The notes under the pieces are model-generated. The model was given only the letters and a program-made list of their open reading frames with translations, was not told the origin of the DNA and made no database searches. This document shows, one piece after another, positions 54,850 through 60,059 of a DNA stretch of 64,000 nt (positions are counted from its first letter, which is position 1; each line of letters starts with the position of its first letter). The position numbers were made by a program, and so were the translations under genes. Source of the stretch: Methyloceanibacter stevinii (GTDB lineage: Bacteria; Pseudomonadota; Alphaproteobacteria; Rhizobiales; Methyloligellaceae); contig NZ_LPWE01000002.1 of the NCBI RefSeq assembly GCF_001723355.1, forward strand, positions 124,001 to 188,000. Direction: 5' to 3'.

Positions 54850-56154
54850 CTAAGACGTCCCCCAAAGGAATGTCGCCCGGCAGTCAAACCCTGCTTCATG
54901 GCGTGACAATGGCGCGGGCAGCGGTGCCGCGCCTTGACGGAAATCAGGAAGGACCAGCCGCCCATCGGCGCGCCGGCAAACCGGCAGCGTACAGGCCGCC
55001 AGACGGGGAACGCAGAGGGCCCCGTCTTGGTCGTTCATGAGCGCGTCGATACCGCCCTCGCCCAGCGCCTCGACGGTTACCGCTTCCGCCTCCCCCGCAC
55101 CGAGTTCGAGGCGAAAGCGATTGTCCCAGAGTAGGCGCTCGCCGGGGCGAAGCGCGCCGTGCGGCAAGCCGGTCTTGCGGACCTCACGGTAGACAGCCAA
55201 GAACGCGCGGCCTGGAACGATCTGGCAGCGCCCCAAAGTCTGTGCCTTGTCCGGCTCCGCACGAAGCCCTTCGAGCAGCGCTTCGAGCTTGGCGAGCCGC
55301 AGCGGCTCGCTCGAACCGCCCACCGCTGCGATAAGCCGCGCAAGCGCCCGAAGGCCCACCTCCTCGGGAGCGTCCAACAGGTCGAGACGAGAGACCGATG
55401 CATACCCCGCGGGGCTACGCTCGCAGTGCCCCTCGAGAAACCGATCGACCGCTGCCTCGATCGCCAAGCGTGCCCGGCGCAGCCGCCGCGCCGACAGCGC
55501 GATTGCCTCCGGCTCGAGGCCGATCTCCGACAGCGCCGCCATCGCTTCCCGCAAGCGTACCCGCTCGAAGCGGGCATCCTGGTTGCTCGGATCGGAACTG
55601 TAGGGGAGATCGGCCGCCTCGGCGGTCGCGACCAGCCGCGCCTTGGGGACCTCCAGCAGCGGCCTCAGGAGCGTGAGCCCCGCCCAGTCGCCCTCCTCGG
55701 GGATCGCCGCAAGCCCATCGAGCCCGCTGCCCCGCTTGAGCCGCATCAGGAACGTCTCCGCCTGATCGTCCAGATGATGGGCTGTCACGAGCGCCGGAAT
55801 GTCATGGGCCGTACAATAGGCCGCCATGAGGCCGTAGCGTGCCGCGCGGGCCCGCGCCTGCAGACTCGCGTCGACGGGCCCGTGCCGCCAGGTCAGGATC
55901 GCGTGGCGTACCCCAAGCCTGTCCGCGATCTCGGCCACCGTCTCCGCCTCGGCCCGGGAGCCCGGCCGCAGGTCATGGTCCACGGTCAGGGCCACGGGCG
56001 CAGGCAATGCATGCCGGCGCGCAAAATCCACACTGAGATGCAGCAAGGCGACGCTGTCCGGCCCGCCGGACACGGCGAGCGCATAGCTTCCACAGCGGGC
56101 CAAGGGCGCCAGGAACCGGTCGGTCTCGGCCTCGGTGAGCGGGGTGGCTGTCAT
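54850..56154 (-). CDS. tilS: tRNA(Ile)-lysidine synthase
   Basis: 434 residues with the PP-loop SGGPDSVALLHL near residue 30 and the TilS C-terminal region. The enzyme modifies the CAU anticodon of tRNA-Ile to lysidine and is essential. ATG 56154 (GAGG upstream) is preferred; GTG 56184 and ATG 56166 are alternatives. In relatives cpoB lies between pal and tilS; here the spacer is 61 bp with nothing in it. Confidence 0.95.
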   Translation of the reverse strand: MTATPLTEAETDRFLAPLARCGSYALAVSGGPDSVALLHLSVDFARRHALPAPVALTVDHDLRPGSRAEAETVAEIADRLGVRHAILTWRHGPVDASLQARARAARYGLMAAYCTAHDIPALVTAHHLDDQAETFLMRLKRGSGLDGLAAIPEEGDWAGLTLLRPLLEVPKARLVATAEAADLPYSSDPSNQDARFERVRLREAMAALSEIGLEPEAIALSARRLRRARLAIEAAVDRFLEGHCERSPAGYASVSRLDLLDAPEEVGLRALARLIAAVGGSSEPLRLAKLEALLEGLRAEPDKAQTLGRCQIVPGRAFLAVYREVRKTGLPHGALRPGERLLWDNRFRLELGAGEAEAVTVEALGEGGIDALMNDQDGALCVPRLAACTLPVCRRADGRLVLPDFRQGAAPLPAPLSRHEAGFDCRATFLWGTS

Positions 56155-56215
56155 AGCCCTCAGCATTGGCGCAAGGGGCCCCACGGGGCAAGTCCGGGCG
56201 GTGGCGCCGGACGCG

Positions 56216-56774
56216 TCAGCGGAGCGTCGGCGGCAGGCTCACGACCGTTCGCGCCCGGCGGTTGCGCGCCCGGCACGAGAGGGCTTCACAGTTCGCGACC
56301 AGGCGCTCCCGGCCGTAGGAGACGGTGGGGATTGACGCGGCGGTGGACCCGTTGCCTCTCCAGCATACGTCTTCACGGCCACGGCCCGCTCGGCGCCGAG
56401 CATCAGGTTGTGCTGGGAGTCGCCCCATTCGTCCGCATGGCCTCGACGAGGATCCGGTAGTCGGGATTGGCCCGCAGCCAGCGGACCTGGCGGCTCAAAG
56501 TCGCCTTCGCGGCCGGGGACAGTTCGGAACTGTCGCTGTCGAAATAGACCACATCGCCGGCGGCGGCGAATTGCGCGGAGCCGGCGGGACGCGACGCGCT
56601 GTCGACCCTCGCGGATGCCTCGGCGACAAGCCCTCCAGCGTCGCCCGAGCCGGCGGCTCCAAGCGTGTACTCCTGCGGCTGGGTCGTGGGACCCAAACAA
56701 GCGGATAGACCGGAAGACAGGAAAAACGCGCCCACAAGGGCGCCGGCGCGGCCGAAGCCACCGCACAGACGCAT
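56216..56774 (-). pseudogene. pal: Peptidoglycan-associated lipoprotein Pal, two frameshifts
   Basis: Start ATG 56774; lipobox LSAC near residue 25. The first frame runs to YRILVEAM; restoring a base near 56440 gives VEGHADEWGDSQHNLMLG. A second restored base near 56356 gives GSTAASIPTVSYGRERLVAN and RARNRRARTVV, ending at 56216. The result is 186 residues with the OmpA-like peptidoglycan site complete. Pal anchors the outer membrane in the Tol-Pal machine. The strong conservation after each shift favours sequencing error. tolR, tolA and tolB are missing upstream and cpoB downstream. Confidence 0.88.
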
Positions 56775-57085
56775 AACCGGATACTCCCAAACACGGTTGG
56801 TTATGGGAGAAGCCTAGGGGCCAAGCCGTTAATGCGGTGTTAGCCGTTTAAGGACCGGGAAAGCAAAACGGCGTCCCGCCAGTCGCGGTGCCGTGGGCCG
56901 GGATCAGGACCCGGCATGAGCACAGGGCTCTTGAGCTCAGCTCACAAAATGAGGGCCCAGAAAAGGAAAAGGATGCCCAAGGCGCCGAAATCTCAAGCGC
57001 GCTGGACATCCCAAATCCCGTAGTGAAACCCGAGAGTTTCCGCAAATCCGAGCGCCGAAGGCGCTCAGGATCTGCCATACCGGTG
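56775..57085. other. Non-coding stretch between the mini-lipoprotein and pal
   Basis: About 310 bp without a recognisable gene. It holds two hairpins (56897-56915 and 57050-57066). An open frame at 56848-57078 on the minus strand lacks a ribosome site and family features. No remnant of tolB was recognised. Confidence 0.5.
56897..56915. repeat. REP-like palindrome
   Basis: GCCGGG-ATCAGGA-CCCGGC is an inverted repeat of the extragenic type seen near 21.8 kb; it lies 120 bp upstream of pal. Confidence 0.45.
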
Positions 57086-57205
57086 TTAGCCGAGCTTCAG
57101 CGGCTCGACAACAACGGCCTTCTCGTGGTGGCCGAAGCAACCGCCGAGCGAAACGGCAGCTGCAACGAGCATGACAGCGGCGATAACGCCCTTCAAACCC
57201 TGCAT
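57086..57205 (-). CDS. 39-residue lipoprotein between tolQ and pal
   Basis: ATG 57205, with AAAGGAGAG 6-9 bp upstream, opens MQGLKGVIAAVMLVAAAVSL followed by GGC, a signal peptide with lipobox (Cys23). The mature 17-residue peptide has HH and several acidic/basic residues. The stop is at 57086, and a GAGCGCC-TTC-GGCGCTC hairpin follows. It is the only gene-like object where tolR, tolA and tolB would be. Small entericidin-like lipoproteins are common in this order, so it may be unrelated to Tol. Confidence 0.7.
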   Translation of the reverse strand: MQGLKGVIAAVMLVAAAVSLGGCFGHHEKAVVVEPLKLG

Positions 57206-57673
57206 GGTCTTCTCTCCTTTGGTTAATACGGCAAGTGCCGTCTTTGCGTGTACCGGTGCAGCGCATTCAGATCAAGATCGGACTGAGGTCTCCTGACGGA
57301 TTTGCCAGCCCATGATGCGAAAATGCCACGCCGAATCTTGTCGTTCGTCCTTGGGAAGCTATCCCCCGATGAAACGCTGAGCAAGGCGCGGTTAACCACG
57401 TTGGGTGGTTCGCGTTAAGGAAAGGTAACCATGTGTTGCAGCAGCGACACAGACGGCCTTCAAGCGCCGAAAAACGAAGCAAAAATGCGAAAAAGTCACC
57501 GTCGAATCGCGGGCTGTCCGTGACCAAATCGCACCATCGGGACTCACACCCGGCAGGCGGCACGACCCGTAGCCACATGGCCGGATTCGATGCCCGGCTC
57601 GCCTAGGGACGAGAGCCGGCAGAGGTACGACAGCGGCCGAAGCCGCCCCATGCCGCGCCGCAGCAATCAGGCC
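57206..57673. other. Non-coding stretch downstream of tolQ
   Basis: About 470 bp. Reading the minus strand from the tolQ stop, no frame resembles TolR (no SEINVTP or membrane segment). It ends with the leader of the mini-lipoprotein. An open frame at 57267-57578 lacks a ribosome site. Confidence 0.5.
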
Positions 57674-58399
57674 CTAAACGGCCCTCTCGATCTGCCGCGA
57701 TAGGATCGCGGAAAACTCGTCGGCGAAGCCCCGCAGCCGGGCCGCATAGCGCGTCCGCTCCACCTCGAACTTCAAGGCGAAGATCTTGGCCGGAATCGCG
57801 ACGAACCACCCCAGCGCCGCCGCCAGAAGGCCCTGGGCGACCCCTGGGGACACTGAGGCCAGGCTAGCGAGATCGCTGCCCGCTGCTCCCTGAAAGGCCG
57901 ACATGAGGCCCCAGGCGAGACCAAAGAGCCCAATGAGCGGCGCGGCGGCCGCGATGGCGGGCAGAAGGGTCAACCCGCGTCCCAGCCCCTCGACGTCCCG
58001 TAACAGAGCGACGTTGGTCACCGTGTCGATGCGGTCCTGGACGCCGGTCATCGGCCGCGCCGCCGGCTGGCCATTCTCGGTCTCGGTGGAGCGCTTCCAT
58101 TCGCGCATGGCCACCACGAACAGCGAGGCCATGCCGCCGTTCCGGCGCTGCGACAGCGCCTGATAGAGTTCGTCCAGCGCCTGGCCCGACCAGAACACCT
58201 TCTCGAACTTGTCCGCCTCTTTCCGCGCCCTGGCGAACTGGATCAGCTTCCGGACGATCACGGTGACACTCCAGACCAGGGCGATCAGAAGCGCGGCGAT
58301 AGCCAGTTGCACGCCCAACGGCGCATCGAGGATCAACCCCAGCACCGACGGGGCGGCAAACGATGGGTCGCCAACGGCGAGCGCGGCATCCGGATTCAT
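57674..58399 (-). CDS. tolQ: TolQ, MotA/ExbB-type channel, pore threonines lost
   Basis: 241 residues with three membrane segments and the TolQ-specific end GFADEFSAILSRQIE. Compared with E. coli TolQ, Thr145 aligns with Leu161 (GLFGLAWG) and Thr178 with Ala194 (LLAAALGW), so the polar pore residues that carry protons are absent. Conserved glycines and fold are kept. TolR, its partner with the pore Asp, is not encoded next door. It is in the ruvCAB-ybgC run 153 bp downstream of ybgC. Function as a proton channel is doubtful. Confidence 0.9.
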   Translation of the reverse strand: MNPDAALAVGDPSFAAPSVLGLILDAPLGVQLAIAALLIALVWSVTVIVRKLIQFARARKEADKFEKVFWSGQALDELYQALSQRRNGGMASLFVVAMREWKRSTETENGQPAARPMTGVQDRIDTVTNVALLRDVEGLGRGLTLLPAIAAAAPLIGLFGLAWGLMSAFQGAAGSDLASLASVSPGVAQGLLAAALGWFVAIPAKIFALKFEVERTRYAARLRGFADEFSAILSRQIERAV

Positions 58400-58552
58400 C
58401 GCAATCCTCTCAAGCGCAACCCCCGAGACCTAGACTCTCGGAAGACTCAAATTCCAGTAGTCCCAATCTCGCGGGGCATCAAAATGGCTGCAAAAACCGA
58501 TAGTTAAAAGCCCGCAAGCCCGTACCAAGTTCCACTGCGGCGGCCCATAGGT

Positions 58553-59026
58553 TCAATCGCGCACCTTAACGAAACGTTCAAGCGCATCGCGGACGAGGTG
58601 CCCCAGACGCTGCGGCTTGCCGGCCTTGGATACGAGCACCACGGACACTTTGAGGCGCGCCAGCGGGACGCCGTCTCGGCGCACCTCTTGGGACAGGATC
58701 AATGTGGCGCCCCCGATCTCCGCGCAGTGCGTCACCACTTCGAGCACCTCGTCGATATGGGCAGGCTTCAGATAGTCCACCTCGATACGCCGCACGACGA
58801 ACACGGCCGGATCCCCCTCAACCGGGTTCTCGAGACTACGGTGATCGATGCCGAGATTGCGGATGAAGTCGGACCGGCCCCGCTCGGCGAACTTCAGAAA
58901 GTTCGCGTGATAGACGAGCCCGGTGAAATCGGTGTCCTCGAAATAGACACGCACGGGGAGGATGTGGCGGTCCCCCTCGATCCGTCCGGCAAGATCGGGC
59001 CAATTGCTGGGCGGGGTTTCGCTCAC
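58553..59026 (-). CDS. ybgC: Acyl-CoA thioesterase YbgC
   Basis: 157 residues, hotdog fold: [20 protein letters not shown] holds the catalytic Asp of the DTD-type motif. It hydrolyses short acyl-CoA or acyl-ACP near the inner membrane and is usually first in the tol-pal operon. GTG 59026 starts MSETPPSN and overlaps the ruvB stop TGA as GTGA if ruvB is read with one base restored. Confidence 0.95.
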
Positions 59027-60059
59027 TCCTCCTCTCCTCCCCGGAAGAGAACGCCTTGCGCGCCTCGGGCGGCGCGGTCACGCCCAGGTGCTCGAAGGCC
59101 TGCCCCGTCAGCACCCGGCCACGTGGCGTGCGTGCGATGAAGCCCTGCTGCAGCAGATACGGCTCGATGATTTCCTCGATGGCGTCGCGCGGCTCCGACA
59201 GCCCCGCGGCAATGGTCTCGATGCCGACGGGCCCACCGCCATAGTTCACGGCGATCAGGCGCAAGTAACGGTGATCAAGCGCATCGAGCCCGCGCCCGTC
59301 TACTTCCAGCTGCGACAGCGCGCTGTCGGCCAGCGCCGCATCGACGGCCCCATCGCCTTGCACGGCCGCGAAGTCGCGCACCCGGCGCAACAGACGCGCC
59401 GCCACGCGTGGCGTACCCCGCGACCGCTTCGCAACTTCCATGGCGCCATCTTCCGTCAGCGGTAACCCCAAGAGCCGCGCGCCCCGGCGCACGATCTCCT
59501 GCAACTCGCTCACCTCGTAGAACATGAGCCGGATGGGAATGCCGAAGCGCTCGCGCAACGGCGTCGTCAGAAGCCCCGTGCGCGTGGTCGCGGCGACAAG
59601 CGTGAACCGGGCGAGGTCGATGCGCACGGAGCGCGCCGCCGGTCCTTCGCCGATAATGAGGTCGAGCTGGAAGTCCTCCATGGCGGGGTAGAGAATCTCC
59701 TCTACCGCAGGGCTGAGGCGATGAATTTCGTCGATGAAAAGCACATCCCGCTCTTCGAGATTGGTGAGCAGTGCCGCGAGATCCCCGGCCTTCGCGATCA
59801 CCGGACCCGAGGTCGCGCGGAAATTGACCCCGAGCTCGCGCGCCACGATCTGTGCGAGCGTCGTCTTGCCCAGGCCCGGGGGCCCCGCGAAGAGCACGTG
59901 ATCGAGCGCCTCTCCCCGCGACCGGGCCGCATCGATAAAGACCTTGAGATTGGCACGTACCTTGGCTTGGCCGATGAACTCGGACAGCGTCTGCGGCCGC
60001 AGCGCCGCTTCCGGCTGGTCGTCGTCGCGCTTCGCGGAGGCCAGGACCCGCTCGGTCAT
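59023..60059 (-). CDS. ruvB: Holliday junction helicase RuvB, one base missing near the end
   Basis: The Walker [13 protein letters not shown] and Walker B DEIHRL are intact. The open frame runs to 58836 and through the ybgC start, which would give 407 residues. If one base is restored near 59040-59090, the end reads FRGGEEE and a TGA at 59023-59025 overlaps the ybgC GTG start. That gives 345 residues, the family length. RuvB drives branch migration with RuvA. ATG 60059 overlaps the ruvA stop (ATGA). Confidence 0.92.

Follow-up and report, generated by a model that had tools for sequence, protein, structure and literature searches.

What can a TolQ and a Pal do in a bacterium that lacks the genes which stand between them in intact relatives? 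The question is raised by a locus of Methyloceanibacter stevinii. The window, that is, the whole stretch of 64,000 nucleotides that was analyzed, carries on its minus strand the genes ruvA-ruvB-ybgC-tolQ-39-aa lipoprotein-pal-tilS-ftsH, and the part from ybgC to tilS is arranged as an earlier reading of the letters (the sequence-only reading) had described it. The features of the locus are the following:

58553..59026, minus strand: ybgC, tol-pal associated acyl-CoA thioesterase (NCBIfam TIGR02799)
57674..58399, minus strand: tolQ without partners, 241 aa, predicted to be pore-dead (NCBIfam tolQ, AlphaFold model)
58088..58234, minus strand: core cytoplasmic loop of TolQ, residues 56-104 (dN/dS and identity)
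57917..57919, minus strand: codon of Leu161, matching E. coli TolQ T145; T to L in 7/7 (alignment)
57833..57835, minus strand: codon of Gln189, matching E. coli TolQ E173; E to Q in 7/7 (alignment)
57818..57820, minus strand: codon of Ala194, matching E. coli TolQ T178; T to A in 7/7 (alignment)
57785..57787, minus strand: codon of Lys205, matching E. coli TolQ V189; gained Lys in 7/7 (alignment)
57206..57673, no strand: gap between tolQ and the lipoprotein, the site of tolR, tolA and tolB in intact relatives (tblastn)
57086..57205, minus strand: 39-aa lipoprotein, one of several paralogues in the genome (lipobox in the sequence)
56216..56774, minus strand: pal region (tblastn pieces, partial PF00691)
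54850..56184, minus strand: tilS, flanking gene (locus comparison)

Gene Content of the Locus and Identity of TolQ

The tblastn searches (E 0.001), run with TolR, TolA and TolB from an intact relative, gave no homologue of these three between tolQ and pal, which agrees with the gap proposed by the sequence-only reading. No known RNA family was matched at window positions 55000-60000 up to E 0.5. The ybgC gene scores 133.1 bits (E 6e-39) against TIGR02799, slightly under the cut-off of 141.35, and precedes tolQ in all 19 loci compared.

The tolQ gene of the window is a single open frame. Its product passes PF01618 (MotA/TolQ/ExbB) with 63.3 bits against a cut-off of 22.9, and its best NCBIfam family is tolQ (TIGR02796, an equivalog; 178.1 bits, E 1.9e-52, under the cut-off of 221), followed at a distance by exbB with 102.8 bits. 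An AlphaFold model built from seven TolQ sequences is of moderate confidence (mean pLDDT 73.7, pTM 0.54). In comparison with the PDB it gave 45 matches at E ≤0.001, and those ranked 1-23 are all TolQ, with TM scores of 0.74-0.80 by query length. Both the fold and the ybgC neighborhood assign the protein to the TolQ family. One PDB entry, 9avi, has TolQ as the sole protein in its title, a hint that this protein can be obtained on its own.

The 39-aa lipoprotein is near-invariant across much of the genus and persists where tolA, tolB and pal are gone. Matches to it are found in 16 of the 17 genus genomes, with 2-5 matches in each of those 16. Upstream of it, at 57206-57435, an alignment of 11 genomes shows a strongly conserved leader which includes the ribosome site and TTAA-rich motifs.

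Distribution of the Tol-Pal Genes among Relatives

The TolQ of the window was matched in 60 of the 61 genomes searched, its own included, with a few matches being only partial or ExbB-like. When named genomes were scanned with the alignment of the clade, the best matches included Methyloceanibacter records. The tol loci compared were those of the window, of 15 of the 16 other genus members (G010 has no TolQ match) and of three further family members.

Four states of the locus were found, with the contig of G011 being cut at tolQ. In state a, the full tolQ-R-A-B-pal is present (G001, G008, G012, i.e., M. superfactus R-67175, G015, G016 and the three family members). State b retains tolQ, the lipoprotein and pal only, and includes the genome of the window (G000) together with G014, G004, G009, G013 (M. 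methanicus R-67174), G006 and G003; these seven are referred to below as the clade. State c has tolQ-tolR and the lipoprotein, without tolA, tolB and pal (G002 and G005). State d has tolQ, a tolR in two frames, the lipoprotein and pal, without tolA and tolB (G007, M. marginalis R-67177). The TolQ of the six other clade genomes are 70-98% identical to that of the window, and two of these genomes (G004 and G014) are single contigs. Clade genomes which are at least 90% complete measure 3.0-3.4 Mb.

TolA is missing in each of the ten genomes that make up states b, c and d, and TolB_N in 12 of the 17 genus genomes, a count that includes G010 and G011 with their incomplete data at the locus. CpoB, searched with the protein of G001 (its identity checked by NCBIfam), was matched at the locus in six of the eight state a genomes (one of them G001) and in no genome of the other three states. 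The missing cpoB before tilS, as noticed in the window, is thus common to all seven clade genomes.

In the order as a whole, TolB is present in 144 of 149 sampled genomes that are at least 95% complete. The five exceptions are G000, G003, G004 and G014 of the clade, and G036, whose contig ends in tolB. As candidates for convergent losses of TolB, G036, G038 and G053 were rejected, since their contigs end inside or before this gene.

Whole-Genome Searches and Reliability of the Assembly

The genome of the window (3.2 Mb, 14 contigs, 99.6% complete) contains four MotA/ExbB and four ExbD matches. Over its whole length no match was found to TolA or to TolB_N, the latter search being positive in the controls E. 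coli, Caulobacter and one Bacteroides, and an intact tolQRAB elsewhere, the finding that the sequence-only reading had set against its own claim, did not appear. The four ExbD genes sit in three loci of the exbB-exbD-tonB type (gene names by eye). At one of them (L005, 7055-9708 onward), exbB, two exbD and a tonB-like gene are followed by a BtuB-like receptor and ABC-transporter-like genes, the later names also being given by eye.

The same applies to the rest of the clade. TolB_N and TolA gave no match in any of the seven genomes, and no TolR adjoins tolQ. ExbD was matched 12 times (G000 four, G003 two, G004 one, G006 two, G009 one, G014 two), each time adjoining an exbB-like gene other than tolQ, although this neighbor is in G006 a weak match only (28% identity). 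In M. methanicus (G013, 93% complete), no ExbD/TolR match was obtained genome-wide at E 0.001, nor a second match to the TolQ of the window; this species possibly has neither a Tol nor a Ton motor. A full Tol-Pal set, with TolQ, TolR, TolA, TolB and Pal all encoded, does not exist in the clade, and the loss of the motor (TolR, TolA, TolB) in these Methyloceanibacter is strongly supported. In dividing cells, this proton-driven motor draws the outer membrane inward.

In the window, the assembly is probably affected by small indels. In detail, frame-breaking gaps in comparison with G014 were found in ruvA (two), ruvB (one), pal (three), tilS (one) and ftsH (two), and none in ybgC, tolQ and the lipoprotein. 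In ruvA and ftsH the gaps are partly compensated inside each gene, as judged by eye. That tolRAB exist and are simply missing from a misassembled or incomplete genome, a doubt already raised by the sequence-only reading and fed by these indels, has a negligible chance of being true, because six further genomes, two of them single contigs, share the same gap and have no TolB_N or TolA anywhere.

The Residues of the TolQ Pore

The seven TolQ proteins of the clade align readily. They were compared with ten relatives drawn from states a, c and d, leaving out G011, which is cut short, and G012, which is partly out of frame. At 12 positions one residue is fixed in the ten relatives and another in the seven clade members. 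These include T161L, E189Q, T194A and V205K in the numbering of the window, i.e., T145, E173, T178 and V189 of E. coli, each changed in 7/7 against a different residue in 10/10. Additionally, the site of E. coli D207, a residue described as facing the lumen at the cytoplasmic end of the channel, holds D or E in all ten relatives and R, K, E or G in the clade, being basic in five of seven.

The proton path of E. coli is described as beginning at E173, passing through the ring of T145/T178 and ending at D23 of TolR (PMC12583513; PMC12965293). V189 is not among its described residues. In the same reports, E173A is lethal, T145A causes a severe and T178A a moderate defect. In place of this set, all seven clade members have L, A and Q at T145, T178 and E173 and no TolR. 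The sequence-only reading had correctly aligned Leu161 and Ala194 with the two threonines; the glutamate is a third loss, which it had missed. With TolR, TolA and TolB absent and the three residues replaced in 7/7, its conclusion that TolQ has lost the energizing role is upheld, and judging from these replacements the TolQ of the clade is very likely non-conducting.

A TolQ still energized through pairing with the ExbD of a TonB system is highly improbable. Potential partners do occur, as the window genome has exbB-exbD-tonB type loci and five of its six clade relatives have ExbD beside exbB-like genes, but the pore residues of TolQ are gone and M. methanicus, without any ExbD match, retains the same TolQ.

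Selection on TolQ

The tolQ gene is open in all seven clade genomes. Its median dN/dS (NG86) is 0.174 over the 21 clade pairs (0.059 to 0.278 by pair) and 0.173 over ten intact pairs. By the ratio of sums over residues 18-239, the clade reaches 0.165 against 0.126 in seven intact relatives. An overall value clearly below that of intact relatives was consequently not seen, the one from the ratio of sums being somewhat higher. For other genes of the clade, the medians are 0.027 (ftsH), 0.043 (ruvB), 0.093 (ybgC), 0.191 (pal) and 0.193 (tilS).

The regions of the protein behave differently. TM2 and TM3 together show a dN/dS of 0.146 in the clade against 0.064 in the intact set, and TM1 of 0.327 against 0.194. 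TM1 with its preceding residues has kept only four of 14 invariant sites in the clade. On the contrary, the core cytoplasmic loop has 0.071 against 0.189, the lowest clade value among the regions compared, and an identity of 0.90 against 0.78. The whole loop (0.156 vs. 0.178) and the tail (0.154 vs. 0.117) differ less. Pairs with failed estimates were dropped, so that 19/21 clade pairs were used for TM2 and TM3 and for the tail, and in the intact set 15/21 for the loop, 16/21 for the core and 19/21 for the tail. These shifts indicate that constraint now lies less on the pore helices and more on the cytoplasmic loop, and not that the protein is held as a whole. At five of six changed sites the residue is conserved but its synonymous codons vary; for Lys205 all seven genomes use AAG.

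The sequence-only reading had spoken of a TolQ remnant. That TolQ is neutral and heading to a pseudogene is improbable, even with the long stem of the clade in the TolQ tree, the many otherwise invariant membrane residues lost and the raised dN/dS of TM1 and of TM2 and TM3, since the frame is open in 7/7, dN/dS stands at 0.17 overall and 0.07 in the core loop, and the new residues are fixed amid synonymous variation. In this respect the term remnant does not hold: TolQ is a maintained, altered protein under purifying selection.

The Pal Lipoprotein

In the window, the frame of pal at 56403-56774 stops early and the remaining OmpA domain lies in two other frames (three tblastn pieces), with a partial match to PF00691 of 22.4 bits, under the cut-off. 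Thus, pal is present in the region, as claimed, but not as one open frame. In G014, which is near-identical to the window genome, pal is a single frame of 185 aa, scoring 72.7 bits against PF00691 and 103.3 bits against its best family, TIGR02802 Pal_lipo, under the cut-off of 125.35. Since frame-breaking gaps occur also in ruvA, ruvB, tilS and ftsH and not in tolQ, the break is probably a sequence error and not a real loss.

Pal is intact in six of the seven clade genomes, and those six have the lipobox and the arginine matching R104 of E. coli (numbering counted by hand on chain 9rle_P), a reported contact to peptidoglycan (PMC11559426). Four fixed changes, R117W, E121Q, P158L and W168R in G014 numbering, mark the Pal of seven TolB-less genomes (G014, G004, G009, G013, G006, G003 and G007; G000 was omitted for its broken frame) in comparison with eight TolB-bearing ones. 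At the site of E102, reported to contact TolB, every genus genome whose aligned sequence extends that far has Ala, whether or not it encodes TolB, and the site is therefore uninformative on the loss.

Phylogeny and a Second Route of Motor Loss

The clade is supported with UFBoot 100, and G007 is its sister (UFBoot 93 and 98). The intact G012 joins these two with an SH-like support of 0.816 in the combined data and 0.950 in rpoB alone, with UFBoot 60, whereas a tree of the flanks only places it with G002/G005 (UFBoot 68). As the best trees set G012 apart from a group that would unite the clade, G007, G002 and G005, two losses of tolA-tolB are favored, which weakly indicates that these genes were lost separately in G002/G005 and in the lineage of the window clade. 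The AU test does not reject one loss (p 0.186; the program warned of too few replicates).

G002 and G005, drafts of 82-84% completeness, have a whole TolR frame of 157 aa with VGVM where intact relatives have VDVM. In this way, the Asp matching E. coli D23 is Gly, and the threonines and the glutamate of TolQ are kept. Pal is not at their locus. The sole OmpA-domain match of G002 is a 361-aa frame of a type present in most of the genus, and G005 (84% complete) has no such match genome-wide. These two genomes give the impression that a TolQR pore tends to be shut once TolA is absent, but G007, which has neither tolA nor tolB, keeps the pore residues of TolQ and the Asp of TolR. The tolR of G007 (L062, 1541-2027) lies in two overlapping frames, and its contig carries a split ybgC as well, so that error and decay are both candidate causes.

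A Proposed Role of TolQ and Pal without a Motor

The retention of TolQ with an altered pore, together with Pal, suggests a second job of TolQ which needs no energy. Four results computed from the genomes, namely gene loss, fixed residues, purifying selection and shifted constraint, lead to the following proposal. The clade has lost the proton-driven part (TolR, TolA and TolB), and TolQ and Pal would have stayed as passive parts. TolQ would have stopped carrying protons once the periplasmic entrance E173, the polar ring T145/T178 and the TolR partner were gone; a new lysine sits close to where TM3 ends on the cytoplasmic side. The retained fold and cytoplasmic loop may still dock to the division or polar-growth machinery, and Pal, with its peptidoglycan-binding arginine, is most likely a link between outer membrane and wall that is not actively relocated.

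The constraint on the core loop, which fits a kept cytoplasmic partner, and the functions of TolQ alone in other bacteria are the grounds for this proposal. In E. coli, overproduced TolQ is reported to disturb division without TolR or TolA and to bind the periplasmic part of FtsN via its N-terminus, and the cytoplasmic pairings with FtsN given in the same report were negative (PMC3831626). The region of this contact, the N-terminus, is poorly kept in the clade, which counts against a scaffold. TolQ fusions are described as reaching midcell without one or all of the other Tol proteins, and the build-up of Pal at septa as requiring all four of them (PMC11559426); therefore, Pal of the clade may do different work. 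In Sinorhizobium meliloti (PMC7327166), growth is reported to require TolQ and Pal, and two-hybrid assays with cytoplasmic fusions describe interactions of TolQ with RgsM, RgsE and, more weakly, RgsA. Experiments on species of the clade were not found in the literature searched.

The most serious competitor is that TolQ now works outside division, either as another kind of pore or, together with YbgC, as a membrane protein linked to lipids or to a thioesterase. The gain of Lys205 and the change at the D207 site would make the cytoplasmic lumen more positive, and ybgC adjoins tolQ in 7/7. This linkage is ancestral, however, and proves little, and no direct sign of a transport or lipid function was seen, so this explanation is considered unlikely. 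The reading of TolQ as a pore-dead passive scaffold and of Pal as a static tether after the loss of the motor is moderately favored, the scaffold role and its partners being the inferred part. As for the wider statement, that a MotA/TolQ/ExbB stator subunit has permanently given up conducting protons and survives as a motor-free scaffold of division or polar growth, evolution having split the architectural from the energized role, we find it evenly balanced.

Comparison with Known Systems

How much of the importance of TolQ lies in generating force and how much in serving as a scaffold is difficult to tell apart with mutants. In this clade the force was removed by nature and TolQ and Pal were kept, and the question becomes testable in a genus with cultured species. 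The genus offers a natural series of genomes in which motor loss has gone to different lengths, its intact species serving as controls, and at least one species (M. methanicus) apparently lives without any stator partner of the ExbD/TolR type. In the literature searched, from which subscription papers were mostly out of scope, a natural, selected TolQ without proton-path residues or TolR, beside Pal, was not found. Methyloceanibacter and Tol-Pal came up together only in a reference and in unrelated mentions within the accessible parts of the sources.

The locus shares with the Tol-Pal system (TolQRAB-Pal) of E. coli and alphaproteobacteria its position, YbgC, the TolQ fold and a Pal with OmpA domain and lipobox. 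It differs in having no TolR, TolA and TolB in the clade, no CpoB at the locus, and a TolQ with replaced proton-path residues. Tol-Pal is reported as essential in Caulobacter (PMC7327166). On the other hand, tol-pal loci are described as completely lacking in Buchnera, Neisseria meningitidis and Rickettsia/Anaplasma (PMC12204202). Like these lineages, the clade has lost the Tol motor despite its outer membrane; unlike them, it keeps TolQ and Pal and loses the middle.

Two further comparisons concern function. The effect of TolQ on FtsN in E. coli (PMC3831626) is, similarly, a TolQ function without TolR or TolA, but it was described upon overexpression, while the clade presents a natural state with an altered pore. 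The Rgs network of S. meliloti (PMC7327166) belongs to a bacterium of the same order, where TolQ and Pal are needed and TolQ contacts Rgs proteins; in contrast to the clade, S. meliloti has a tolQRAB operon along with Pal.
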